In this document: piece after piece, positions 2,972-22,518 of the stretch
How the letters are laid out: every line of letters starts with the position of its first letter
How positions within the stretch are numbered: the first letter of the stretch is position 1
Assembly (NCBI RefSeq): GCF_017377715.1
Contig: NZ_JAFVMF010000005.1
Span: forward strand, 124,001-188,000
Source of the DNA: Acetobacter sacchari
GTDB taxonomy: Bacteria; Pseudomonadota; Alphaproteobacteria; Acetobacterales; Acetobacteraceae
Direction of reading: 5' to 3'
Length of the DNA: 64,000 nucleotides
The notes under the pieces: generated by a model
Database searches by the model: none
What the model saw: the letters and a program-made list of their open reading frames with translations, nothing else
Told to the model about the DNA's origin: nothing
Program-made: the position numbers and the translations under genes

Positions 2972-4052
2972 GCGTCGTCTCCACTGAATTGGCCGGTTCG
3001 TTGGCTTGCAATGGCGCAGGAACGTCTGGCGCTGCGGCGACCGTCGCGCTTTCCCGACGCCGGAGCGCGCGCATTTCAAAACTCTGCCACAGCAGCAACA
3101 CGGGGACGCCGATGCACAGCTCGCGCCCCCGACGAAGCAGGGACAGGCCGAGCGACACAGACGGGTCAATACCGAACGCATGGCCTAGCGTCATGTAGGC
3201 TCCTTCCTGCACGCCAAGCCCGGCGGGCACGAGGAAGGAGGCTGACATGATGCCGCAGGTGACGCCCTCGATGGCGATGGAATCAGGAAAGTTGAGCTGC
3301 GCGCCGAGCAGACGATAGGTCAACCACAGAATTCCGGCGCTGCTGATCCAACCCAGCAGATGCAGGCTGGCGGAGGCCATGATCTGGCGCGGCTTCGACC
3401 ATGCCTCCTCCATCCGCTCCTGTATGGTGTCGGCGCCGTCCATCATGCTGTTCTGCCACTGTCCGGCGATGTGACGCCCGAGAAAACCAACGGCCTTTCG
3501 TACAGCGGCGCCGCCGCGCTGCTGCGTCCAGATGAAGCCGGCGACGCCGATCGTCAGCAGAAAGGCGCCGATCACGACAGGCTTAACCAGGGGATTCGCG
3601 CCGGCGCCGACGACCAGTAACGTCACGGCCAGCAATACGAAGACGATCTGCCCCAGAACCTCAGTCGTGATGTCCACGACATTGGCGCAGGCGGCTTCTG
3701 GCCATTCGACGACCGTGCGGCCCTTGCCGCCTGTGGAATGTTCGGGTGTGAGGCAGGTGGCGCGAATGCCCAGCACGATTCCGCCGAGCTGGGAGAAAGG
3801 CAGGCATGTCGCCGCCGCGTCTCGCACCAGGCGCGCCATCAGAAGATGTCTGTATGGCATCTTCGGGAAAGCGGCATTCCACGCGAGCGCCAGCAACGTG
3901 TCGACCAACAGTTGCGCGACCAGAGTCAGCACAAATCCGAGCACGCCGATCCGCGTCACAGCGTGCGCGACCGAGCCGAAGCCGCTCCATGCCATCGCGG
4001 CGGTGACGCCGGCCAGTCCCAGCAGGCTGAGCAGGATGGTAAGCTTCTTCAA
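2961..4052 (-). CDS. hpnL: HpnL-type integral membrane protein (UPF0104/lysylphosphatidylglycerol synthase TM domain family)
   Basis: The protein has about seven or eight hydrophobic segments and the family pattern seen in the flippase-like TM domain, including the late glycine-rich segment PAGLGVQEGAY. In hopanoid producers this family is the HpnL membrane protein, whose exact biochemical role is not settled. The start is uncertain. A TTG at 4052 gives LKKLTILLSLLG, a typical N-terminus of basic residues then hydrophobic, and it overlaps the stop of a short upstream frame as TTGA. An in-frame ATG at 4085 with GGGA about ten bases upstream is the alternative. The frame extends to 4319, but the extra sequence is arginine-rich and unlike coding sequence. 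It is divergent from hpnA and upstream of tyrC. Confidence 0.82.
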   Translation of the reverse strand: MKKLTILLSLLGLAGVTAAMAWSGFGSVAHAVTRIGVLGFVLTLVAQLLVDTLLALAWNAAFPKMPYRHLLMARLVRDAAATCLPFSQLGGIVLGIRATCLTPEHSTGGKGRTVVEWPEAACANVVDITTEVLGQIVFVLLAVTLLVVGAGANPLVKPVVIGAFLLTIGVAGFIWTQQRGGAAVRKAVGFLGRHIAGQWQNSMMDGADTIQERMEEAWSKPRQIMASASLHLLGWISSAGILWLTYRLLGAQLNFPDSIAIEGVTCGIMSASFLVPAGLGVQEGAYMTLGHAFGIDPSVSLGLSLLRRGRELCIGVPVLLLWQSFEMRALRRRESATVAAAPDVPAPLQANEPANSVETTRVG

Positions 4053-4273
4053 GGTTGGCAATCGTCCATCATGGCTGCAGCCCATCTCATGTCCCGCAGC
4101 GTGCGGCCAACCTCGTCGGGCGTGTCTGGGACGACGGATCGAAACGCAGCGTCGGTACCCGCGGGGCAGGCGCCGCCCCCGTCCAAAACCCGGCGAATTT
4201 CTCGGAGGGCGTCGGGTTCGGGGATAAAGCCGCATCGGATCGCCGATCCCGGTCGCCGGGCGGACTTCCGCGC
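4049..4273 (-). CDS. Possible short upstream coding sequence or gene fragment before hpnL
   Basis: A minus-strand frame of up to 74 residues, open after an in-frame TAA at 4276-4274, has ordinary protein composition: PEPDALREIRRV, and later PDTPDEVGRTLRDMRW. It stops at 4049-4051 in TTGA overlap with the hpnL TTG. There is no ATG or GTG near its beginning, only a TTG about 30 codons in, so it may be the tail of a frameshifted or truncated gene rather than a complete one. I do not recognise it. Confidence 0.25.
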   Translation of the reverse strand, partial: ARKSARRPGSAIRCGFIPEPDALREIRRVLDGGGACPAGTDAAFRSVVPDTPDEVGRTLRDMRWAAAMMDDCQP

Positions 4274-4566
4274 TTAAGGAGCCCAATATGGCGCCCGCAG
4301 GAAAAACTGGCACGCCCATTACACTACCCGCCTGCGGTGCGCCAGTCTCGGATAATTGGCGTCAGGTCGCCGTACTGACGAGGGTGCGGTCCAGAGCCTT
4401 GGCGCGCATCGGTGGCGTATCTCGCATGCGAAAAGGGCGGTCGTGGCCACTGGCGCACTTGCCGGAGATCGGGATAAGCATCGGGTCGCTGCATCAGTGC
4501 CGTGCGATGAACACGTACGGCCACGCGCACAAATAACCCACAATAACGCCCGGAGAGAAAGCGCTC

Positions 4567-5562
4567 ATGTCTCACCCAACTCTTGTGACGGGCGCCACGG
4601 GGTTCGTAGGCTCCGCCGTCGCCCGCAACCTGCTGGCGCGGGGCCACAACCTGCGTCTGATGGTCCGCGCGGGTAGCGACAGGCGGAATATAGACGGTCT
4701 TCAGGCTGAACTGGTCGAGGGCGATCTTTCCAATCCGGCGTCTTTCGTTCGCGCCGTCGACGGGTGTCGCTATGTCTTCCATGTCGCGGCGGATTATCGC
4801 CTGTGGGTGCCTGACCCTGCGCCGATGATGGCGGCCAACGTCGAGGGCACCCGGCTTTTGATGCTGGCTGCTTTGCGGGCGGGCGTCGAGCGGATCGTTT
4901 ACTGTTCGTCCGTCGCCGCGCTTGGCCTTATTGGGGACGGAACCAGCGCAGATGAGACGACGCCAGTGCATGAACACGGGGTCGTGGGCCTATATAAGAA
5001 GTCAAAATATCGTGCTGAACAGGAGGTGTTGCGTTTGACGCGCGACCGTGGCCTTCCTGCGGTGATCGTGAATCCGTCGACGCCGGTAGGCCCGCGCGAC
5101 GTCAAGCCGACTCCCACCGGGCAGATGATCCTCGACTGCGCGGCGGGACGGATGCCCGCCTATGTGGATACGGGCGTCAATATCGTCCACGTCGACGACG
5201 TGGCGGAGGGGCATGCGCTTGCGCTCGAACGCGGCGTCGTCGGCGAGAAATACATTCTTGGGGGCGAGAACTACCTTCTGGGCGATCTGTTTCGCATGGT
5301 GTCTGAGATCGCAGGCGTAAAGCCGCCCAGGATCAGTCTGCGGCAGGAAGTCATCTGGCCGGTTGCAGTCGTTTCGGAGTGGCTTTCGCGGCGCTTCGGG
5401 GTTGAGCCCCGCGTCACCCGCGAGATGCTGGCGATGTCGCGCAAGAAGATGTTCTTCTCGTCGGACAAGGCGATCCGGGATTTGGGTTACGCACCCCGTC
5501 CGGCTCGGGAGGCTGTGGCTGACGCCGTCGCATGGTTCCGGGAAGCTGGAATGCTTGGCTAG
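4567..5562 (+). CDS. hpnA: Hopanoid-associated sugar epimerase/NAD-dependent dehydratase HpnA
   Basis: HpnA belongs to the extended short-chain dehydrogenase (NAD-dependent epimerase/dehydratase) family. The NAD-binding motif TGATGFVG is at residues 8-15, and the catalytic YxxxK pair is Y143 and K147, preceded by the SSVAALG serine segment. The length of 331 residues is typical of the HpnA group. The ATG at 4567 follows a GGAGAG ribosome binding site. In hopanoid loci it is proposed to act on the sugar of the hopanoid head group; that role is from family context, not shown directly. It is the first gene of the plus-strand run hpnA-hpnB-hpnCD-hpnE-shc-hpnG, so the 250 bases upstream should hold the divergent promoters for it and hpnL. 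Confidence 0.93.
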   Translation: MSHPTLVTGATGFVGSAVARNLLARGHNLRLMVRAGSDRRNIDGLQAELVEGDLSNPASFVRAVDGCRYVFHVAADYRLWVPDPAPMMAANVEGTRLLMLAALRAGVERIVYCSSVAALGLIGDGTSADETTPVHEHGVVGLYKKSKYRAEQEVLRLTRDRGLPAVIVNPSTPVGPRDVKPTPTGQMILDCAAGRMPAYVDTGVNIVHVDDVAEGHALALERGVVGEKYILGGENYLLGDLFRMVSEIAGVKPPRISLRQEVIWPVAVVSEWLSRRFGVEPRVTREMLAMSRKKMFFSSDKAIRDLGYAPRPAREAVADAVAWFREAGMLG

Positions 5563-5736
5563 AAAATCGGCCATAACTAACCTTTGATCCTTACGTTTCC
5601 GAGTCCCCCGGACGGCGACATTCACGGTCATCTGATCGCGCTGCTCGGGGGCGTTCATGAAGCACGGATTCCGCCGAATCTCTGAAAGCTTCAGCATCGA
5701 GCTTTTCCACATAGCCCCTATCAAGGACAAAGTCCG

Positions 5737-6909
5737 ATGGCCACGATATTGGCTGCGGTGTGCGCGCTTGTTTGGATCGCGCTCATTTTCTTTCACGGAC
5801 GCTTCTGGCAGGCGGGACCGATTCTGCAACCGGCCTCACCCGACACGGGATCGCATGGAGCGCCTCCGGTCGTTGTGGTCGTACCTGCGCGTGATGAGGC
5901 TGAATCCATTCAGGCCTGTATCGCGTCTCTGCTGACTCAGGATTACGCAGGCTTCCTGCGCGTCGTGCTGACCGACGACAACAGCGCGGATGGAACAGGC
6001 GCTTTGGCCCGCGCGCTGCCTGACCCCGACGGGCGGCTGACCGTTGTGAACGGGCGACCCAGACCTGCAGGCTGGAGCGGTAAGCTTTGGGCGGTGGAGC
6101 AGGGCGTGTCGCGCGCGCAGGAAATCCTGCATGCGGCCAATCTGCCGACAGATGGTTACATCCTGCTGACCGATGCGGATATCGAGCATGATCCGATCCA
6201 CCTTGCGACCCTGGTCGCCAAAGCGGAGACGGAGAATCTCGACATGGTGTCGGAGATGGTGGAACTGAACTGCGAGAGCGCGGCTGAGCGTGCGTTGGTG
6301 CCTGCGTTCGTGTATTTTTTTGCGCTGCTCTACCCGTTCGCCCTCGTCAACGATCGACGCCACGCAATGGCGGCGGCGGCTGGGGGCACGATTCTGATTC
6401 GTCGTACGGCGCTCGATCGGATCGGCGGAATTACGGCGCTGCGCGGCGCACTGATCGACGATTGCACACTTGCGGCGCATGTGAAGCGGTCGGGCGGCGG
6501 GCTGTATCTTGGACACTCACGTATGGCCCGTTCGATTCGTCCCTATCCCAACGCGAGCGACGTCTGGCGAATGATCGCCCGCACGGCGTACGTGCAGCTT
6601 CGTTACTCGCCATGGCTTCTGGTCGGGACAGTGCTTGCGATGGTGGTGACGTGGATCGCGCCGATGGGGCTGGCGCTTTTCACGCATGGTGCGCCACGTT
6701 TCGTCGGGCTGATCGTATGGATCGTGCTGATGGCGTCGTTTCTGCCGACGCTTCGCCGTTTTCGCATATCGCCTCTATGGGCGCTGGCTTTGCCGTTCGT
6801 GTCGATCTTCTATACAGCCGCGACGATCGGGTCCGCGATCGATCATCATCGCGGACGCGGCGTGAGGTGGAAAAACCGCGCCTACACCGATGCTCAGCAT
6901 GATCGGTGA
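5737..6909 (+). CDS. hpnB: Hopanoid biosynthesis glycosyltransferase HpnB
   Basis: This is a family 2 glycosyltransferase of 390 residues. A short N-terminal hydrophobic helix is followed by the GT-A fold, with VVVVPARDEA at about residues 46-55, DDNSADGT at 80-87 and the metal-binding DAD at 146-148. Three hydrophobic segments near the C-terminus (about 288-310, 325-345 and 347-370) would anchor it in the inner membrane. Members of this group are called HpnB and always sit in hopanoid loci; they are thought to glycosylate the C35 hopanoid side chain, but the donor sugar is not evident here. It lies 174 bases after hpnA, a gap in which I see no gene. Confidence 0.92.
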   Translation: MATILAAVCALVWIALIFFHGRFWQAGPILQPASPDTGSHGAPPVVVVVPARDEAESIQACIASLLTQDYAGFLRVVLTDDNSADGTGALARALPDPDGRLTVVNGRPRPAGWSGKLWAVEQGVSRAQEILHAANLPTDGYILLTDADIEHDPIHLATLVAKAETENLDMVSEMVELNCESAAERALVPAFVYFFALLYPFALVNDRRHAMAAAAGGTILIRRTALDRIGGITALRGALIDDCTLAAHVKRSGGGLYLGHSRMARSIRPYPNASDVWRMIARTAYVQLRYSPWLLVGTVLAMVVTWIAPMGLALFTHGAPRFVGLIVWIVLMASFLPTLRRFRISPLWALALPFVSIFYTAATIGSAIDHHRGRGVRWKNRAYTDAQHDR

Positions 6910-6977
6910 CGTTCGAAACGTCTGTCGTCATAGCTGCGCTGTAGGCAGCGGCGCGGCGAGGGTGTAAAGCACCCGCG

Positions 6978-8861
6978 ATGTCGCACGAGCCCCAAAATTT
7001 TGAAAAAGAGAGCAGCGCTGGCGCCGAGCCGGTCGATCCGGCGGCGCCTGACGTAGCCATCGATCCTTGGCGCGCGCCGGACGTGTCGTCCGGCAAGGGC
7101 GAAGGCGACGAGAATTTTCCCGTAGGCTCGATCCTGTTCCCGAAGGTTCTTCGGGAGCATGTGCACGCCTATTACAAGTTCGCGCGAATCAGCGACGACG
7201 TGACCGACAGTTCTCTGCTCTCGCCGGAAGAGAAGGTCGCCCGTCTCGACGCGATGGAGGCGATCCTCCGCGGCGAAGCGGAGGCTCCGGATCGCGCGGA
7301 TTCCGGCTCCTGCGCCACACTTCGCGTGAGCCTGCTGCGAACGGGTCTGCCGTTCGAGGTCGCGACCGATCTGCTGGTCGCGTTTCGGCAGGACGCCACG
7401 AAGGCGCGTTACGACACCTTCGCGGAACTGCTGGATTACTGCCGTTACTCCGCGAATCCCGTTGGCCGCTTTCTTCTTCTTCTACACGGCGAGCACGAGC
7501 GGACTTTCCCTGCGTCCGACGCGCTTTGCACCTCGTTGCAAATCCTGAATCACTTGCAGGACTGCAAGGAAGATCTGCGGACGCTGAAGCGCAGCTACCT
7601 GCCGCTCGACTTTCTGGCGCTCCATGGCCTCGACGCAGACGCGGTTCTTGCGACGCACATGTCGCCGAAATTGCGCGCAGTGTTCGACGCGCTGCTCGAC
7701 GAGGTGGATGCGCTCAATGAAAAGGCGGCCGGGCTGGTTTCGCTCGTGCACGACCGGCGGATGCGTATGTATTGCGGCGCAGTCATCAATCTGGCCTTTC
7801 GCCTGGCTGCGCGACTGCGCAAGGGTGATCCGCTGGCCGATCGGGTGGCTCCGGGGCGGGCTGACTTCGCCCGCGCCGGTCTCGCGGCCGCAGCAGCCTG
7901 TCGTGCTGTGGCGAGCCGTAAGGGCGCTGGCGCCAGCTCTGCCGAAGGGAACGACATGAACGCAGCGAAGATGGCGCAGCCGCTTGGTTGCGGAGTGGGG
8001 GACCTCGCGCGGGTCGAGGGTATTGTGCTGCAGGCGGGAACGTCTTTTGCCGCTGGCATGCGCGTGCTTCCGGAAGAGCGACGTTTCGGCATGTACGCGG
8101 TCTACGCGTTCTGCCGCATCGTTGACGACATTGCGGACGGCGACGCCGCTCCGTCTCGCCCCGGAGCAGAGGGCGAAGCCGATCGGGTCGCGCAGCTCGA
8201 CGCGTGGAGGGCGCGCGTTGCGCGTCTGTTCGCGGAGCCTGAAGCTGGTGTGGCGGAAGACTCGTTGGACCGCGTCCTGCGCGCCACGATCCGGCGTTTC
8301 GATCTGCGGCAGGCTGATTTTGAAGCGATCATCGACGGCATGGCGATGGACGCGTGCGGACCGGTCGTGGCGCCGGATGAGGCGACCCTCGATCTGTATT
8401 GCGACCGTGTGGCGTCAGCTGTCGGCCGTCTGTCCGTCCGGGTGTTCGGAGATGCGTCCGAGATGGCGGACAAGGTCGCGTTCCATCTGGGACGTGCGCT
8501 GCAGTTGACCAACATCCTGCGCGACATCGAAGAAGACGCCCGTCTGGGCCGACTTTATCTGCCGCGTGAATTGTTGACCCGCTATGACGTGCCGCTGGAG
8601 CCGCGCAAGGCGCTGACGGCTCCGGGGCTTGCAGGCGTCGCGACAGTGCTTGCCTTTCGCGCGGACGACCATTTCCGTCAGGCCTTCGTCGCGATGGCGA
8701 AGTGTGATCGTCGCGCCATGATCCCGGCGCGAATGATGGGCGGCTCCTACGCCGCGATTCTCAAGGCGCTGCGTCAGCGGGGCTGGGCGGATATCGCGCG
8801 ACCCATCCGGGTCGGCAAGTTTCGCAAGATCGCCGGCATGGCGCGCGCGTTCGTCGCCTGA
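6978..8861 (+). CDS. hpnC-hpnD: Fused HpnC-HpnD: hydroxysqualene synthase plus presqualene diphosphate synthase
   Basis: One uninterrupted frame of 627 residues encodes two trans-isoprenyl diphosphate synthase (phytoene/squalene synthase) domains. Residues about 35-315 match HpnC, with aspartate motifs DDVTD at 73-77 and DCKED at 195-199. Residues about 335-627 match HpnD, with DDIAD at 383-387 and DIEED at 516-520. By family knowledge HpnD joins two farnesyl diphosphates to presqualene diphosphate and HpnC converts that to hydroxysqualene. In other bacteria these are normally two adjacent genes. The linker (about 316-334) is alanine/serine-rich and contains an internal ATG at 7956 that would start a normal-length 301-residue HpnD. 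Both aspartate motifs look intact in each half, so both activities are expected. hpnE follows two bases after the stop. Confidence 0.93.
   Translation: MSHEPQNFEKESSAGAEPVDPAAPDVAIDPWRAPDVSSGKGEGDENFPVGSILFPKVLREHVHAYYKFARISDDVTDSSLLSPEEKVARLDAMEAILRGEAEAPDRADSGSCATLRVSLLRTGLPFEVATDLLVAFRQDATKARYDTFAELLDYCRYSANPVGRFLLLLHGEHERTFPASDALCTSLQILNHLQDCKEDLRTLKRSYLPLDFLALHGLDADAVLATHMSPKLRAVFDALLDEVDALNEKAAGLVSLVHDRRMRMYCGAVINLAFRLAARLRKGDPLADRVAPGRADFARAGLAAAAACRAVASRKGAGASSAEGNDMNAAKMAQPLGCGVGDLARVEGIVLQAGTSFAAGMRVLPEERRFGMYAVYAFCRIVDDIADGDAAPSRPGAEGEADRVAQLDAWRARVARLFAEPEAGVAEDSLDRVLRATIRRFDLRQADFEAIIDGMAMDACGPVVAPDEATLDLYCDRVASAVGRLSVRVFGDASEMADKVAFHLGRALQLTNILRDIEEDARLGRLYLPRELLTRYDVPLEPRKALTAPGLAGVATVLAFRADDHFRQAFVAMAKCDRRAMIPARMMGGSYAAILKALRQRGWADIARPIRVGKFRKIAGMARAFVA
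7945..7958 (+). promoter_or_regulatory. Candidate internal ribosome binding site and start codon for separate HpnD
   Basis: An AAGGGA sequence lies five bases before an in-frame ATG (codon 327 of the fused gene). Translation from it would give a free HpnD of about 301 residues with its own N-terminus. Whether it is used cannot be told from sequence. Confidence 0.4.
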
Positions 8862-8863
8862 TC

Positions 8864-10183
8864 ATGGCGCGTAGAGTTCACATTGTCGGCGGCGGTCTGG
8901 CCGGGCTGTCCGCCGCTGTCGAGATCGCGGGCAGCGGGCAGCATGTGATCGTGCATGAGGCCGGTCCGGCATGCGGCGGCCGCGCGAGATCCTACGAGGA
9001 TCGCAAACTCGGACGACGCATTGACAACGGCAATCATCTTCTGCTGACAGCGAACGAGGCCGTGTTCCGCTACCTCGCGCTCGTCGGCGCGCACGATACG
9101 CTGACCGGGCCGGACCGACCGATCTTTCCGTTCGTCGATCTGGCGGAGTCCGGGAGGTGGACTCTCGATCTGTCGATGGGGCGCATTCCCTGGTGGACGC
9201 TCAGCCCCGGGCGCCGCGTCCCGGGGATGCGGCTCAGCGAACTGGCCAGCCTCAATCGCCTGATGAAAGCGGGGCCGGACCAGACGGTCGCCGAATGCCT
9301 GTCGCACGGAGCGTTCTCACGGCGTCTGCTGGAGCCGTTCTCCATCGCTGCCCTGAATACGATGAGCGACGAGGCGAGCGCCGCTCTGCTGGGCTATGTG
9401 GTGCGTGAGTCGTTGGCCAGGGGCGGGAGGGCCTGTCTGCCGCGTTTTCCGAAAATCGGCCTGTCGGAAAGTCTCGTCGATCCGGCGCTGGCGCATCTCG
9501 ACGTGCTCAAGGCGGAGGTCAGGACCGGCAGTCGCGTCACCGCGATTGACGTTGCCGATGGACGCGTGACAGCGCTGCGTTTTCCAGATGATGTCGTCGA
9601 TGTCGGGGATGACGACGTGGTCATCCTCGCTGTTCCGGCGCAGGTGGCGTCTTCTTTGCTGCGCGACGTTGTGCAGGATTTCGACGCGCCAGACCGGTTC
9701 GAGAGCATCCTGAACGCGCATTTCCGGCTGGACAGGCCCCCTGTGGCTCTGGGCTCGCTCGGCGAAGCCGGTTTCATCGGCGTGATCGGCGCGGTCACGG
9801 AGTGGGTGTTCCTCAAGAACGATATTGTGTCGGTGACAGTCAGCGCCGCCAACCGTTACGCCGACCGGGATCCGGAGGAACTGACCGCAGTCATCTGGAA
9901 CGAGGTGCGGCGCGCGCTGGACGCCATGCTCGACACGCCGTTGCCGCTCCAGCCCGCCGGAACGCGTCTGGTCTGGGAGAAGCGCGCGACGTTCGCGGCG
10001 ACGCCGGATCAACTGCGTCGAAGGCCTGAAGCGCGGACCTCTCTTGCAAATCTTGCGCTGGCCGGAGACTGGACGGCGACGCAATTGCCCGCCACGATTG
10101 ACGGCGCCATTCGTTCCGGCGTCGCTGCAGTCAAGGCTCTTGGCCTGCGTGGGCCATATTCGGAGAGCAGCGCGAGGCGCTGA
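8864..10183 (+). CDS. hpnE: Hydroxysqualene dehydroxylase HpnE
   Basis: HpnE is an FAD-dependent amine-oxidase-like enzyme that reduces hydroxysqualene to squalene. The dinucleotide-binding motif GGGLAG is at residues 9-14 with the acidic residue of the Rossmann fold about 20 positions later (HEAG). Further family marks are the RIDNGNH segment near residue 50 and the C-terminal FAD-contact segment LALAGDWTATQLPATIDGAI. The length of 439 residues is typical. The ATG is separated from the hpnCD stop by only two bases, so the genes are almost certainly translationally coupled. HpnC, HpnD and HpnE together replace the single eukaryotic-type squalene synthase. Confidence 0.94.
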   Translation: MARRVHIVGGGLAGLSAAVEIAGSGQHVIVHEAGPACGGRARSYEDRKLGRRIDNGNHLLLTANEAVFRYLALVGAHDTLTGPDRPIFPFVDLAESGRWTLDLSMGRIPWWTLSPGRRVPGMRLSELASLNRLMKAGPDQTVAECLSHGAFSRRLLEPFSIAALNTMSDEASAALLGYVVRESLARGGRACLPRFPKIGLSESLVDPALAHLDVLKAEVRTGSRVTAIDVADGRVTALRFPDDVVDVGDDDVVILAVPAQVASSLLRDVVQDFDAPDRFESILNAHFRLDRPPVALGSLGEAGFIGVIGAVTEWVFLKNDIVSVTVSAANRYADRDPEELTAVIWNEVRRALDAMLDTPLPLQPAGTRLVWEKRATFAATPDQLRRRPEARTSLANLALAGDWTATQLPATIDGAIRSGVAAVKALGLRGPYSESSARR

Positions 10184-10360
10184 TCGGTTTGGGTTTTACA
10201 GTCGTGCGTCGGTGCTGTTTTGCCTGCGCTGCGAGAGAATACGGGGCGGCCCAAGTGGTCGCCCGGAAGATTGATGTCCGGCGTCGAGTATCCCGTCCGT
10301 GAGCCTTGTTGGGCGACGCGTCCGGGGGTAGTCGGATTCGAGGAGGGATGACTGCAGATC

Positions 10361-12361
10361 ATGTTGGACGTCACGGATTCCGCTGCCGATACACTGCCGA
10401 CGGGTGTCGCGGCGCCAGCCGCTCCGGTGTTGGACCCCGGTGAACTCGACCGACTGGTCAGGAATGCGCACGCCGCTCTCTCCAGTCGGCAGCGTGACGA
10501 TGGCCACTGGGTGTTCGAGCTTGAATCGGATGCGACAATCCCGGCCGAATATGTGCTGCTGGAACACTTCCTTGATCGTATCGACGACGAACTTGAACAG
10601 AAGGTGGGTGTTTATCTGCGTCGTATTCAGGGCGCACATGGCGGTTGGCCGCTTTACCATGATGGCGACTTCAACATTTCTGCCACTGTGAAGGCGTATT
10701 TCGCGCTGAAATGTATCGGCGACGACATCGACGCGCCGCATATGCGGCGCGCGCGAGAAGCTATCCTTGCTCACGGCGGCGCGGAGCGCACCAACGTGTT
10801 TACGCGCTTCCAGCTCGCACTTTTCGGGGAGGTGCCATGGCGCGCGATGCCGGTCATGCCGGTCGAGCTGATGCTGCTGCCGCGTTCGGCGTTCTTTTCC
10901 GTGTGGAACATGTCTTACTGGTCGCGGACGGTCATCGCGCCGCTGCTGGTGCTCGCAGCGCTGAAACCCGTGGCGCTCAATCCCCGCGATGTGCATGTGC
11001 GAGAGCTTTTCGTCACGCCGCCGGAGAAGGTGAAGGACTGGATACGCGGCCCCTACCGCTCGACGTGGGGCAGGGCGTTCACCGTGCTCGACAAGGTGCT
11101 GCGCCCGGCGACGAAACTCATTCCTGCCTCGACGCATCGGCGTGCGCTTGATGCGGCAGTGCGGTTTATCGAGCCGCGTCTGAACGGACGTGACGGACTG
11201 GGCGCGATTTACCCGGCCATGGCGAATTCCGTGATGATGTATCGCGCGCTCGGCGTCCCCGACAGTGACCCGCGCGCCAGCACAGCCTGGGAGTCCGTCC
11301 GGGCGCTGGCGATTGATCATGGCGACGAGATTTACTTTCAGCCGTGCGTTTCCCCGATATGGGACACTGGGCTGGCCGGTCATGCGCTGATTGAGGCTGC
11401 GTCTGGTCAACAGGGCGTGGAGCCGGAGAAGACGAAGGCGGATCTCTCCAAAGCAGGAGAGTGGCTGCGGTCCAAACAGATTCTCGACGTGAAGGGCGAC
11501 TGGGCGATCAACCGTCCCGACTTGCCGCCCGGCGGCTGGGCGTTCCAGTACGGCAACGATTATTACCCGGACGTCGACGATACCGCGGTCGTCGGCATGT
11601 TGCTGCACCGCGAGGGCGACCCGGCTAGCGCCGAGGCGATCGAGCGGGCGCGCCAGTGGATTATCGGCATGCAGAGCAGCAACGGTGGCTGGGGCGCATT
11701 CGACGTCGATAACAACAAGGAGCTGCTGAACCACATTCCGTTTTCGGATCATGGAGCGTTGCTTGACCCGCCGACGGTCGATGTGGCGGCGCGCTGTATT
11801 TCCTTTCTTGCGCAACTCAAAAACCCCGAAGACCGGCCCGTCATCGAACGCGGGCTCGAGTATCTGCGTCGGGAGCAGGAGAAAGATGGCTCCTGGTTCG
11901 GGCGCTGGGGCACGAACTATATCTACGGCACGTGGTCGGCCCTGTGCGCCTTCAACATAGCTGGCGTCTCGCACGACGATCCGGCGGTGTCGCGTGCGGT
12001 GGAGTGGCTGCGCTCCGTGCAACGTCCGGACGGCGGCTGGGGTGAGGGGTGTGAGAGCTATGAAGATGGCCCGCGCGGCGCTTACAAGGAAAGCCTGCCG
12101 TCGCAAACCGCCTGGGCTGTGCTTGGCTTGATGGCGGTTGGCCGCAGGGACGACCCTGCGACGGCGCGTGGCGTGGCGTGGCTGGCCAGCCAGCAGGACG
12201 AAAACGGCGAGTGGCAGGAACAGCCCTATAACGCCGTCGGATTCCCGCGCGTGTTCTATCTTCGTTACCACGGGTACAGGATGTTCTTCCCTCTTTTGGC
12301 GCTGTCGCGTTATCGCAATCTGGAAAACAGCAACTCACGGCAGGTCGCCTTTGGCTTCTGA
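10361..12361 (+). CDS. shc: Squalene-hopene cyclase
   Basis: This enzyme (also called HpnF) cyclises squalene to hopene and hopanol on the inner membrane. At 666 residues it is the usual length. The catalytic acid motif DVDDTA is at residues 404-409, and several QW-type repeats can be read, such as GGWGAFD near residue 447, GSWFGRWG near 510 and GGWGEG near 559. An RBS-like GAGGAGGGATG stretch lies about 16 bases before the ATG at 10361. A 177-base gap separates it from hpnE; this may hold a secondary promoter. The last bases overlap the probable start of hpnG. Confidence 0.97.
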   Translation: MLDVTDSAADTLPTGVAAPAAPVLDPGELDRLVRNAHAALSSRQRDDGHWVFELESDATIPAEYVLLEHFLDRIDDELEQKVGVYLRRIQGAHGGWPLYHDGDFNISATVKAYFALKCIGDDIDAPHMRRAREAILAHGGAERTNVFTRFQLALFGEVPWRAMPVMPVELMLLPRSAFFSVWNMSYWSRTVIAPLLVLAALKPVALNPRDVHVRELFVTPPEKVKDWIRGPYRSTWGRAFTVLDKVLRPATKLIPASTHRRALDAAVRFIEPRLNGRDGLGAIYPAMANSVMMYRALGVPDSDPRASTAWESVRALAIDHGDEIYFQPCVSPIWDTGLAGHALIEAASGQQGVEPEKTKADLSKAGEWLRSKQILDVKGDWAINRPDLPPGGWAFQYGNDYYPDVDDTAVVGMLLHREGDPASAEAIERARQWIIGMQSSNGGWGAFDVDNNKELLNHIPFSDHGALLDPPTVDVAARCISFLAQLKNPEDRPVIERGLEYLRREQEKDGSWFGRWGTNYIYGTWSALCAFNIAGVSHDDPAVSRAVEWLRSVQRPDGGWGEGCESYEDGPRGAYKESLPSQTAWAVLGLMAVGRRDDPATARGVAWLASQQDENGEWQEQPYNAVGFPRVFYLRYHGYRMFFPLLALSRYRNLENSNSRQVAFGF

Positions 12362-13064
12362 CGCCGCACCCGGCGGCTCGCTCGCCGTGATCGACCGGAA
12401 TGTCGGTTTCCTTGTCGGCCTGAAAGCCGAAGCGGCTCTGTTGCGCCAGTTTTTTCCTGACGCGCCGATCGCGATCAGCGGCGCTACGCCGGAAGGAGCG
12501 CGACGAGGCGTCGACAGGCTGGTCGCGTCGGGGGCGTCGGGGTTGGTGTCTTTCGGGCTCGCGGCCGGACTCGATCCGGCGCTGGCGCCCGGAAGCATTA
12601 TTATTCCCGACGCAATTGCGGTGGACGGACGGGTCGTTCCGTGTGACCCGAGGCTAAGACGCGCGCTCGGGGCGAAGGATGGCGTAACTGTGGGCGGCGC
12701 TCTGCTGCACAGCGACACGGTCGTTCTGAAGGCGGAAGACAAACAGCGCCTGGGTCTCGAAAGCGGCTGTTGCGCTCTGGATATGGAAAGCGGCTTTGTC
12801 GCGCAGCGAGCGCGTGAGGCGCGCCTGCCGTTCGCCGCGTTGCGGGCGGTCTGTGATTCCGCGTCACGTACACTCCCGCCCGCGACGGCGTTCGCCCTCA
12901 GCCCCGAAGGGGGGGTGAAGATTGGTATGCTCTTGCAATCTCTGGCGCAGAACCCGGCCCAGATCGGCGGGCTCATAGCCATTGGTCTCGACGCGGGCCG
13001 AGCGCGCAAGGCGATGGCGCATTTCCTGAAAATTAACCGACCGTCCGTAAGGTTCTCGCGTTAA
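12351..13064 (+). CDS. hpnG: HpnG, adenosylhopane nucleosidase (phosphorylase superfamily)
   Basis: HpnG is a member of the PNP/MTA-SAH nucleosidase superfamily that removes adenine from adenosylhopane to give ribosylhopane. The chain has the ALDMESG motif, whose glutamate contacts the nucleoside ribose in the family, and the glycine-rich GLVSFGLAAGLD segment. I chose the TTG at 12351, which has AGG about seven bases upstream and overlaps the shc stop by 11 bases, giving 237 residues. A GTG at 12387 is another possible start. The frame extends to 12138 inside shc, but that part is a shadow. The radical SAM partner hpnH, which makes adenosylhopane, is not found in the window. Confidence 0.88.
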   Translation: MASDAAPGGSLAVIDRNVGFLVGLKAEAALLRQFFPDAPIAISGATPEGARRGVDRLVASGASGLVSFGLAAGLDPALAPGSIIIPDAIAVDGRVVPCDPRLRRALGAKDGVTVGGALLHSDTVVLKAEDKQRLGLESGCCALDMESGFVAQRAREARLPFAALRAVCDSASRTLPPATAFALSPEGGVKIGMLLQSLAQNPAQIGGLIAIGLDAGRARKAMAHFLKINRPSVRFSR

Positions 13065-13354
13065 GAGTTGCGCAGTGTTTGGGGGCCGCATTGTTGTCTG
13101 AGTGGCGGGAATGCGGCAGGGTGTGCTGTGAATTGAGCTGGCCGGTTTGACTGGCTGTGGGGAGAGCGCTCCGGCACATAAGAAGCGCTCGTCGTACGAG
13201 CGGACCAGGATTTTGTAATCGGAAGCGGTGAGCGCCATCCGCCTGATCTTTAATTTTCGCATGTTTTTTACACGCCGGGTTTGAACGCTTCGAGGTCACT
13301 CACCTCGTCCGGGCGGCAATGCTCCGGTGGCCATGTTGACGACGAGGATATTCG

Positions 13355-15859
13355 ATGAACGCTCCCCTGGCGACGACACGGCGCGTCGCTCAATTCGCCG
13401 GTTACTTCGATAGTCTCGATGGGCGCGAATTGAGGGGGTGGGCCTGCAATCTTGCGTCGCCACGTGAGCCTGTAAAATTGCACGTTCTGCTCGATGAGCA
13501 GGAAATAGGCACTGTCGTCTGCGACCAGCTCCGTCAGGATGTTCAGGCCAGTATCGGCGTCATGACGCCGCGTCTGGGATTCGCGTTCACTTTGCCGGAC
13601 TCCGTGGTCGACGGTCTCAAGCACCGGCTTGGCCTGCGTTTTCCTGACCGGTCGATCGTGCCATCTCTGGCGGCGAATGACGGGCAGATACGGCACGAAG
13701 ATATCGTTTTCATGCTGGCGCCACGGTTCAAGTTCGACTCGTTTGTCGATGGATTCCGGGCCGGCGCACTGCGCGGCTGGGTTCAGCGTGTCGATCCTGC
13801 CTCCGGGGCGAGGCTGGGGGCGTGCGACGTGGCGATCCATATGGACGGAGCGCCGTTCAAGCAGGTCAGGGCGGATCGGTTCCGTGGCGATGTCGCGGCG
13901 GCTATCGGCGGCGACCCGAATTGCGGGTTTGAGGTCGCGATTCCACGCAATCAGCGGCGTGCCGGAGCGCATCGCTTCAGCTTCCACGTCATCCCTGAAA
14001 ATGTCGAGCTGACTGGGAGTCCGGTCGTAACCAGCGTGGTCGATGACCAGTTGGAGGCGCGACTGCTTTTGTTGGGCGAAACCGTTGATCGCTTGCATCG
14101 CGAGATATCGGCGTTACGCACGCAGATCGCGGATCTTACGCCGAAGGCGCGTCATACGCTTGGTGATTATGACGCCTGGGCGCGTGAGTATTTCGATTTG
14201 CTACGCGCTCGCGTCGCGGAGCGCCGCGTGGCGTCTGGAGGCGGAGCTGGCGAGCAACCGTTGGTCAGTGTTATCTGTCCCACCTACAAGCCCGATATGG
14301 ACCACTTCATCGCGGCCGTGGAATCCGTGATCGCCCAGACCTGGACCAACTGGGAACTTATCGTCGTTGATGATGGGGGCAAGTCTCTTGAGGTCGCTGC
14401 ACGCCTGGCGGAATACTGTCGCTCCGACCCGCGCATCAAGTTGCTGCGTCTGCGCAAGAATGTCGGCATTGCCGGAGCTACGAACGCCGGGATAGCCGCG
14501 GCGAGGGGGAAATGGATCGCGTTTTTCGATCACGATGATCTGCTCGTGGATGTTGCGCTTGAGAGCATGTTCCAGGCGGGTCATGGGTCTGAGGCGAAAA
14601 TCATCTATTCCGATGAAGACAAGATAGATGACGCCGGCGTGTTTCAGGAACCGAACTTCAAGCCCGATTTTGATTACCGTTATCTTCTGGGATGCAATTA
14701 CATCTGTCATTTGACCCTCGTGAGGGCCGATATTTTGCGCGAGGCAGGGGACCTGCGTGCGCAATATGACGGGGCACAGGACCACGATCTCATGCTTCGG
14801 TTGACGGAAATCGTCCCGCGGGATGAGATTCTTCACGTTCCTGAAGTTCTGTATCACTGGCGCAAGACGCCAAATTCGACCGCCACGACGGTCGCTAACA
14901 AGCAATATGCGGTGCAGGCGGGCGTGCAGGCGGTCACCGATCATCTGAGAAGAATTGGTCACACGGCGGAAGTGAAAGCGCTTAATGAGATCACGATTTA
15001 TGATGTAAGGTGGTCCTTGCTGCGAACGCCGGACGTGACGATTATCATACCGTTCAAGGACCAGATCGATACGACGCGTGAATGCGTCGAGCGATTGCTT
15101 GAGAACACCGATTATAAGCATTTCAATATCGTGCTCGTCGATAATTGGTCTGCGACACAGGAAGCTGCGGATTTTTGTAAAGAGATCGTTCGCGACAAAC
15201 GCGTCAGCGTGATGTCCGTGCGAGAGGAATTCAATTATTCTCGCCTGAACAATCTGGCGGCTGCGAAAAGCCAGTCCGAATTTCTATTTTTCATGAACAA
15301 CGATCTGTTCATGCATGATCCGCAATGGCTGTCGATTGTGCTGTCCGAGGCTCTGGTGGGGGATGACATCGGTGCGGTCGGTGGCAAGTTCCTTTATCCA
15401 AGCGGCGCGGTGCAGCATGTCGGTGTCGCGGTCGGGCCGGACGGAGTGGCGACGCACGTGCATCGCGGCCTTCCGGGAAATGATTACGGTTATATTGGGC
15501 GGGCGGTGCTGTCGCACGAAACGACAGCGGTAACCGCGGCTGGCATGCTCGTTCGAGCCGAAGCGTTCCGCGAGGTCGATGGATTCGACGAAGTAAATCT
15601 GAAGGTCGCGTACAACGACGTCGATTTCTGCCTCAAACTGCGGGACGCCGGTTGGCGGATTATACAGTGCAACGATTTCGTGGCCGTGCACCACGAAGGA
15701 TTGTCGCGCGGCAGCGATGACCGACCGGAGCATGAGGCGCGCTTCCAGGAGGAGACACGACACATGCATGTAAAGTGGGGCAATAATCCGCTGTATCTTC
15801 GCGATCCAGCCTATTCGCCCCATTTTCGCCTTGAGCAGAGTTACTACGATCTTGCTTAA
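13355..15859 (+). CDS. Large bifunctional family 2 glycosyltransferase with duplicated N-terminal module
   Basis: This 834-residue protein has four parts. Residues 16-97 and 130-212 are two copies of one module, sharing LRGWA/LRGWV, a VxxD/MDG turn, QLRQDV/RFRGDV, GFxxxxP and a final G..HR strand. Residues about 232-262 look like a short coiled coil. Residues 303-540 are a first GT-A domain with ISVICPT-like start, VVDDGG and a DHDD metal site. Residues 560-834 are a second GT2 domain with MNNDL, GG and EVNLKVAYNDVDFC segments. Such double glycosyltransferases build rhamnan-type polysaccharide, O-antigen or S-layer glycan; the exact product is unknown. The ATG follows GAGGA at ten bases. It stands alone after the hopanoid genes with a 290-base leader. 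Confidence 0.88.
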   Translation: MNAPLATTRRVAQFAGYFDSLDGRELRGWACNLASPREPVKLHVLLDEQEIGTVVCDQLRQDVQASIGVMTPRLGFAFTLPDSVVDGLKHRLGLRFPDRSIVPSLAANDGQIRHEDIVFMLAPRFKFDSFVDGFRAGALRGWVQRVDPASGARLGACDVAIHMDGAPFKQVRADRFRGDVAAAIGGDPNCGFEVAIPRNQRRAGAHRFSFHVIPENVELTGSPVVTSVVDDQLEARLLLLGETVDRLHREISALRTQIADLTPKARHTLGDYDAWAREYFDLLRARVAERRVASGGGAGEQPLVSVICPTYKPDMDHFIAAVESVIAQTWTNWELIVVDDGGKSLEVAARLAEYCRSDPRIKLLRLRKNVGIAGATNAGIAAARGKWIAFFDHDDLLVDVALESMFQAGHGSEAKIIYSDEDKIDDAGVFQEPNFKPDFDYRYLLGCNYICHLTLVRADILREAGDLRAQYDGAQDHDLMLRLTEIVPRDEILHVPEVLYHWRKTPNSTATTVANKQYAVQAGVQAVTDHLRRIGHTAEVKALNEITIYDVRWSLLRTPDVTIIIPFKDQIDTTRECVERLLENTDYKHFNIVLVDNWSATQEAADFCKEIVRDKRVSVMSVREEFNYSRLNNLAAAKSQSEFLFFMNNDLFMHDPQWLSIVLSEALVGDDIGAVGGKFLYPSGAVQHVGVAVGPDGVATHVHRGLPGNDYGYIGRAVLSHETTAVTAAGMLVRAEAFREVDGFDEVNLKVAYNDVDFCLKLRDAGWRIIQCNDFVAVHHEGLSRGSDDRPEHEARFQEETRHMHVKWGNNPLYLRDPAYSPHFRLEQSYYDLA

Positions 15860-22444: not shown

Positions 22445-22518
22445 TGGCTGGGGGACCTGGATTCGAACCAGGGCTGACCGGGTCAGAGCCGGTAGTTCTA
22501 CCGCTAAACTATCCCCCA
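22445..22518 (-). tRNA. tRNA-Gln (anticodon CTG)
   Basis: The complement folds as a full cloverleaf. The acceptor stem pairs TGGGGGA (22518-22512) with TCCCCCA (22555-like partner at 22455-22449). The anticodon arm ACCGG/CCGGT encloses the loop CTCTGAC, so the anticodon is CTG, reading CAG glutamine codons. The T arm CTGGT/...CAGG contains GTTCGAATC. The discriminator base is G and the CCA end is encoded (22447-22445). The 5' U-G pair region is usual for glutamine tRNAs. Confidence 0.95.

Follow-up and report, generated by a model that had tools for sequence, protein, structure and literature searches.

In bacterial squalene synthesis, HpnD makes presqualene diphosphate from farnesyl diphosphate, HpnC converts this intermediate into hydroxysqualene, and HpnE yields squalene, as summarized in PMC5462960 with reference to Pan et al. 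2015. PMC5462960 also describes fused hpnCD genes in subdivision 2 Acidobacteria, some Actinobacteria, and Rhodospirillum centenum, and names Actinopolyspora and Blastococcus saxobsidens as carriers. The acidobacterial hpnCD, as described there, is a single gene of about twice the usual size, with HpnC followed by HpnD, located in a hopanoid gene cluster, and its sequences have been annotated as HpnC. We found no report of an hpnCD fusion in Acetobacter in the open-licence literature, where one could be missed.

We analyzed a 64,000-nucleotide stretch of Acetobacter sacchari DNA, hereafter the window, in which hpnC and hpnD had been predicted from the sequence to be fused into one reading frame (Table 1). 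This frame, on the plus strand, contains zero internal stops and translates into 627 residues, in which Pfam SQS_PSY matches two stretches. When scanned alone, the HpnC half (residues 1-326) scores 260.4 bits, just 10 bits above the TIGR03464 equivalog cut-off of 250.45, and the HpnD half (residues 327-627) scores 297.9 bits, above the TIGR03465 equivalog cut-off of 278.6. The open translation and the two halves, each above its own cut-off, thus bear out the predicted fusion. HpnC and HpnD are each defined by two aspartate-rich motifs, and both domains keep theirs, as had been proposed: SDDVTD and DCKED in HpnC (D73/D74/D77 and D195/D199), VDDIAD and DIEED in HpnD (D383/D384/D387 and D516/D520), with all motif Asp residues invariant in a 12-row alignment. 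The 627-residue protein is the sole match at E <= 0.001 in its own genome assembly (4.55 Mb, 166 contigs, 99.68% complete), so both domains should work if the strain makes squalene by the HpnC/HpnD route. The features of fused HpnCD given in PMC5462960, that is one frame, HpnC first, and a position within the hopanoid gene cluster, are all found here.

Table 1. Features of the fused hpnC-hpnD gene and its surroundings (positions in the window).
Feature	Position	Strand	Basis
hpnA	4567..5562	+	TIGR03466, above cut-off
hpnB	5737..6909	+	TIGR03469, above cut-off
Fused hpnC-hpnD reading frame	6978..8861	+	627 codons plus stop; open-frame translation, Pfam and NCBIfam matches
HpnC domain, residues 41-304	7098..7889	+	TIGR03464
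TGT (Cys308), fusion point	7899..7901	+	aligns with HpnC's TGA stop in sibling Acetobacter (junction alignment)
19-codon linker, former intergenic spacer now in frame	7899..7955	+	junction alignment; pLDDT <50 at residues 313-332
Moderate Shine-Dalgarno-like stretch gaaggg	7944..7949	+	computed pairing -5.6 kcal/mol; sequence prediction
Ancestral hpnD start ATG (Met327), now internal	7956..7958	+	aligns with siblings' hpnD ATG
HpnD domain, residues 352-624	8031..8849	+	TIGR03465
hpnE	8864..10183	+	TIGR03467, above cut-off; begins 2 nt past the stop of the fused gene
shc (squalene-hopene cyclase)	10361..12361	+	TIGR01507, above cut-off

The gene order in the cluster is hpnA-hpnB-hpnCD-hpnE-shc. 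Around the junction with hpnE (window 8859-8866, TGATCATG), the hpnE start follows the stop of the fused gene by 2 nt and lacks a Shine-Dalgarno sequence (computed pairing +1.2 kcal/mol), which suggests that hpnE is translationally coupled to the fused gene. A promoter scan of positions 4000-13500 found no sigma-70-like site, and terminator-like sites in the same interval are near chance (10 versus a mean of 7.8, sd 2.9). The only Rfam match is a tRNA, and tRNA-Gln (CTG) at window positions 22445-22518 on the minus strand is the only tRNA found in the window.

An open frame of this kind could also arise from a sequencing or assembly error that removed a stop or a frameshift, a possibility raised with the original prediction. 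A second, independent genome, that of Acetobacter nitrogenifigens DSM 23921 (records L058 and G168, identical by coordinates and counted once), carries the same fusion in the same frame with no stop between the domains, and its protein shares 94% identity across residues 1-627. Both linkers are open, and 11 of their 57 bases differ between the two species. This second genome, with its diverged linker, rules out an assembly error as the origin of the fusion; we found no support for an error, and consider it vanishingly improbable.

Comparing the two fused species gives dN/dS values of 0.071 (HpnC domain) and 0.066 (HpnD domain), from which both domains are judged to be maintained. In the linker, the 11 base differences cause 4 amino-acid differences, compared to a random mean of 7.0 (P = 0.027, one species pair), which hints, in a single small comparison of 11 differences, that the linker is constrained as protein. 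The open linker alone is no sign of selection, because 90% of the random simulations of linker changes were also stop-free.

The origin of the fusion can be traced by comparison with sibling species. In A. fallax, A. musti, and A. estunensis (L059, L060, L062, L063), hpnC and hpnD lie side by side in the same frame, and their sequences are 62-66% identical to the fused protein over the whole aligned length. In A. fallax, A. musti, an Acetobacter MAG (UBA5411), and two A. estunensis loci, HpnC and HpnD occupy one frame interrupted by a single TGA. In the junction alignment, this TGA, with which the siblings' HpnC ends at the position of Cys308, aligns with the TGT of the fused species. The sibling spacer is a multiple of three with no further stop in the frame of HpnC in 7 of the 10 loci examined, several of which are close kin, so that one base change would be enough for fusion. 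A change of TGA to TGT is the simplest reading of this comparison, not proof, because the junction alignment is gappy and the sequences are approximately 65% identical.

The phylogeny points in the same direction. In a 51-row tree of the joined HpnC and HpnD domains, the fused pair (support 100/100) groups with 11 separate-gene rows (99/96), two more separate rows join next (100/97), and all remaining rows, including three outgroup rows, are separate. Since all rows around the fused pair, outgroup included, are separate, these sequences place separate hpnC and hpnD genes as ancestral in Acetobacter and the fusion as derived. Unlike the acidobacterial hpnCD, compared here by description only, the A. 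sacchari fusion appears derived inside Acetobacter from separate genes, with a linker recognizable as the old spacer and the hpnD start still in place. This derivation within Acetobacter argues for an origin separate from that of the acidobacterial fusion, in trees (this one and the 184-row tree below) whose rows did not include acidobacterial sequences.

We consider it very probable that a stop-to-sense change joined hpnC to hpnD in an ancestor of the two species, yielding one two-domain chain. In the common ancestor of the A. sacchari strain and A. nitrogenifigens, the final TGA of hpnC would have become TGT, and with this stop lost the frame would have continued across a short spacer into hpnD, its existing downstream neighbor. 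Translation from 6978 would then produce a single chain of 68 kDa (68.1 kDa computed, compared to 32.8 kDa for HpnD from Met327), in which a linker connects two squalene/phytoene-synthase-type domains that fold separately. Judging from family membership, the HpnD half would convert two farnesyl diphosphates into presqualene diphosphate and the HpnC half would convert presqualene diphosphate into hydroxysqualene, while HpnE and Shc, encoded next in the operon, would finish the route to hopene.

Initiation at the old ATG may continue to supply some free HpnD, the fused product and any free HpnD being predictions from the DNA. The proposal of an in-frame ATG with a candidate ribosome binding site at the junction holds, the site being moderate: ATG 7956 (Met327) is in frame and preceded by gaagggaacgac, with a computed anti-Shine-Dalgarno pairing of -5.6 kcal/mol through gaaggg. 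Elsewhere in the window, gene starts pair at -6.6 (hpnA), -4.9 (hpnB), -6.1 (fused gene), -10.3 (shc), and +1.2 kcal/mol (hpnE). The old hpnD ATG is kept in both fused species (-5.3 kcal/mol in A. nitrogenifigens) and has its equivalent in the 10 nearest sibling loci with ATG at the hpnD start (-5.4 to -8.1 kcal/mol), with GTG there in A. oeni (-8.6 kcal/mol). Production of free HpnD from ATG 7956 is therefore plausible, and because this ATG and its moderate ribosome site are still present, the fused chain may be neither the only nor the main source of HpnD. This conservation would also fit a fusion that is largely nominal, in which HpnD is made mainly from 7956 and HpnC with its HpnD tail is a tolerated by-product. 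We regard this as unlikely, given that 8 of 88 other in-frame ATGs located inside eight genes of the window also reach -5.6 kcal/mol and that, with no stop left, every ribosome completing hpnC also makes HpnD. Furthermore, 6 of 14 fused loci (L004, L006, L203, L229, L230, and L231, with L229 and L231 from one genus) have no in-frame ATG around the junction, so that these loci probably obtain HpnD from the fused chain alone, unless GTG or TTG serves as a start.

The fused architecture was then sought beyond the two species. In the genus Acetobacter, 49 genomes were searched, one had no match, and 48 were classified: 2 fused, 18 with both domains in one frame separated by at least one stop, and 28 with the domains in different frames. 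Among the 104 Acetobacteraceae genomes outside Acetobacter with a locus examined, 4 are fused, belonging to three other genera (G001, G029, G116, and G071), 90 have separate neighboring genes, and 10 have no adjacent pair in the DNA examined. In a search of the order (395 genomes), the single stop-free rows spanning both domains among the matches listed came from A. sacchari (G000), A. nitrogenifigens, G001, G116, and G029. A search of the class covered 192 genomes, of which 105 had a match, and revealed the fusion in at least eight genomes from six other alphaproteobacterial families (G532, G573, G597, G454, G563, G441, G555, and G542), a minimum and not a rate because fused cases were picked among the matches listed by open-frame length. 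Within this set, the frame of G597 is cut by the contig end within HpnD, G454 and G563 are weak matches accepted at 90 bits, and in G555 (L231) the DNA upstream of the HpnC match showed neither an ATG nor a GTG start. The rarity implied by the original prediction was thus overstated, given the fusions published in other bacteria and the 12 further alphaproteobacterial genomes in which we read one.

Matches were accepted at 120 bits in the earlier junction readings and at 90 bits in the fused-locus inspection and the final counts, in which 17 genomes have no adjacent pair in the DNA examined, a class that does not imply absence for short loci. Candidate fusions in G150, G184, G188, G042, G060, and others with a shared open-frame length were rejected, as their DNA shows a stop between the domains (L047-L049, L010, L013), and for this reason junctions were classed from the DNA and not from open-frame length. 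Some loci depart from the common arrangement. In L172 (G179, an Acetobacter), hpnC is split over two frames (residues 22-241 and 242-321), by a frameshift or an assembly error. In L120 (G071), approximately 390 further codons of the stop-to-stop frame precede the HpnC match, and the frame stays open to the locus end; this could reflect chance or an additional fusion. Adjacency of hpnC and hpnD is not required, as some Acetobacteraceae have them unlinked or separated by kilobases (G085:C15, as well as G025, where they lie at C1:1619450-1620304 and 2528216-2529058, 0.9 Mb apart).

A 184-row tree places 11 fused rows in separate places, requiring 8 label changes, 7 of them forced by well-supported branches, in a FastTree-only analysis that carries a long-branch warning (L200 and L230 among the rows concerned) and in which the changes could include losses. 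Six repeat loci (L031, L206, L232, and L234-L236) were left out before classing; 10 identical rows, the partial L203, the weak fused L227 and L228, and all loci without a pair were dropped after it. Because the fusion is rare, its repeated gain is the simpler reading of these sequences.

Such recurrence, in four Acetobacteraceae genera and six other families, is what would be expected if selection favored the fusion for channeling presqualene diphosphate between HpnD and HpnC or for holding the two at a 1:1 ratio at the membrane; according to a review (PMC6439483), squalene also rose in Rhodopseudomonas palustris when a different pair, CrtE and HpnD, was fused by engineering. We nevertheless find selection of this kind quite improbable. 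Where the spacer preserves the frame, as in the 7 sibling loci, one base change is all that fusion takes, which makes repeated neutral fusion plausible, and 46 of 48 Acetobacter genomes do without the fusion. Linkers also vary widely among lineages, from 27 to 234 nt between the matched domains. All fused cases have HpnC first, the only order searched, since the query and junction classing cover HpnC upstream of HpnD and would miss HpnD-HpnC fusions. The original prediction was correct that HpnC comes first although it acts second; this is no oddity, because neighboring separate genes have the same order and stop loss yields it.

The structure model agrees with two domains joined by a low-confidence stretch. 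AlphaFold2, run with the 12-row alignment, gives two helical domains with a mean pLDDT of 80.5 and a pTM of 0.50; most 10-residue blocks score 84-96, some 62-79, and residues 1-25 and 313-332 fall below 50. With this pTM and the low-confidence linker, the model gives no defined placement of the HpnC and HpnD domains relative to each other, and nothing in it suggests a tunnel. Apart from two related carbazole prenyltransferases, the 50 Foldseek matches listed are squalene or dehydrosqualene synthases, with HpnC 4HD1 among them. By sequence, the closest solved relative of the HpnC half is HpnC of Alicyclobacillus acidocaldarius (PDB 4HD1, E 1.1e-29), and its fold resembles a domain of the predicted model (TM 0.85 on target), but it is a stand-alone protein, unlike the fused protein. 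The CrtM-like dehydrosqualene synthases 8IS6 and 2ZCO share the fold of a domain of the predicted model and are sequence relatives of the HpnD half, but they make a different product and are not HpnD.

The proposal that the fusion channels the intermediate thus found no support, the linker being the old spacer modeled at low confidence, and channeling is not needed to explain the fusion. A broader version, in which alphaproteobacteria gained the fusion repeatedly as tethering helps to hold or hand over presqualene diphosphate, and in which A. sacchari and A. nitrogenifigens are a recent case that makes both fused and free HpnD from one gene, appears just as doubtful; within it, the siblings of this recent pair differ by the lost stop and ordinary divergence.

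We conclude that the HpnC-HpnD fusion of A. sacchari is real but of an already known kind, and that the Acetobacter case appears new within the open-licence literature and has an unusually clear origin. It provides a clear example of a gene fusion for which a single stop-codon change is enough, and it has close siblings in which the two genes are still separate. It is also a warning to annotators that HpnD can be mislabeled when fused to HpnC, as in the Acidobacteria according to PMC5462960. The fusion sits in the three-enzyme bacterial squalene pathway, whose known chemistry it leaves unchanged.
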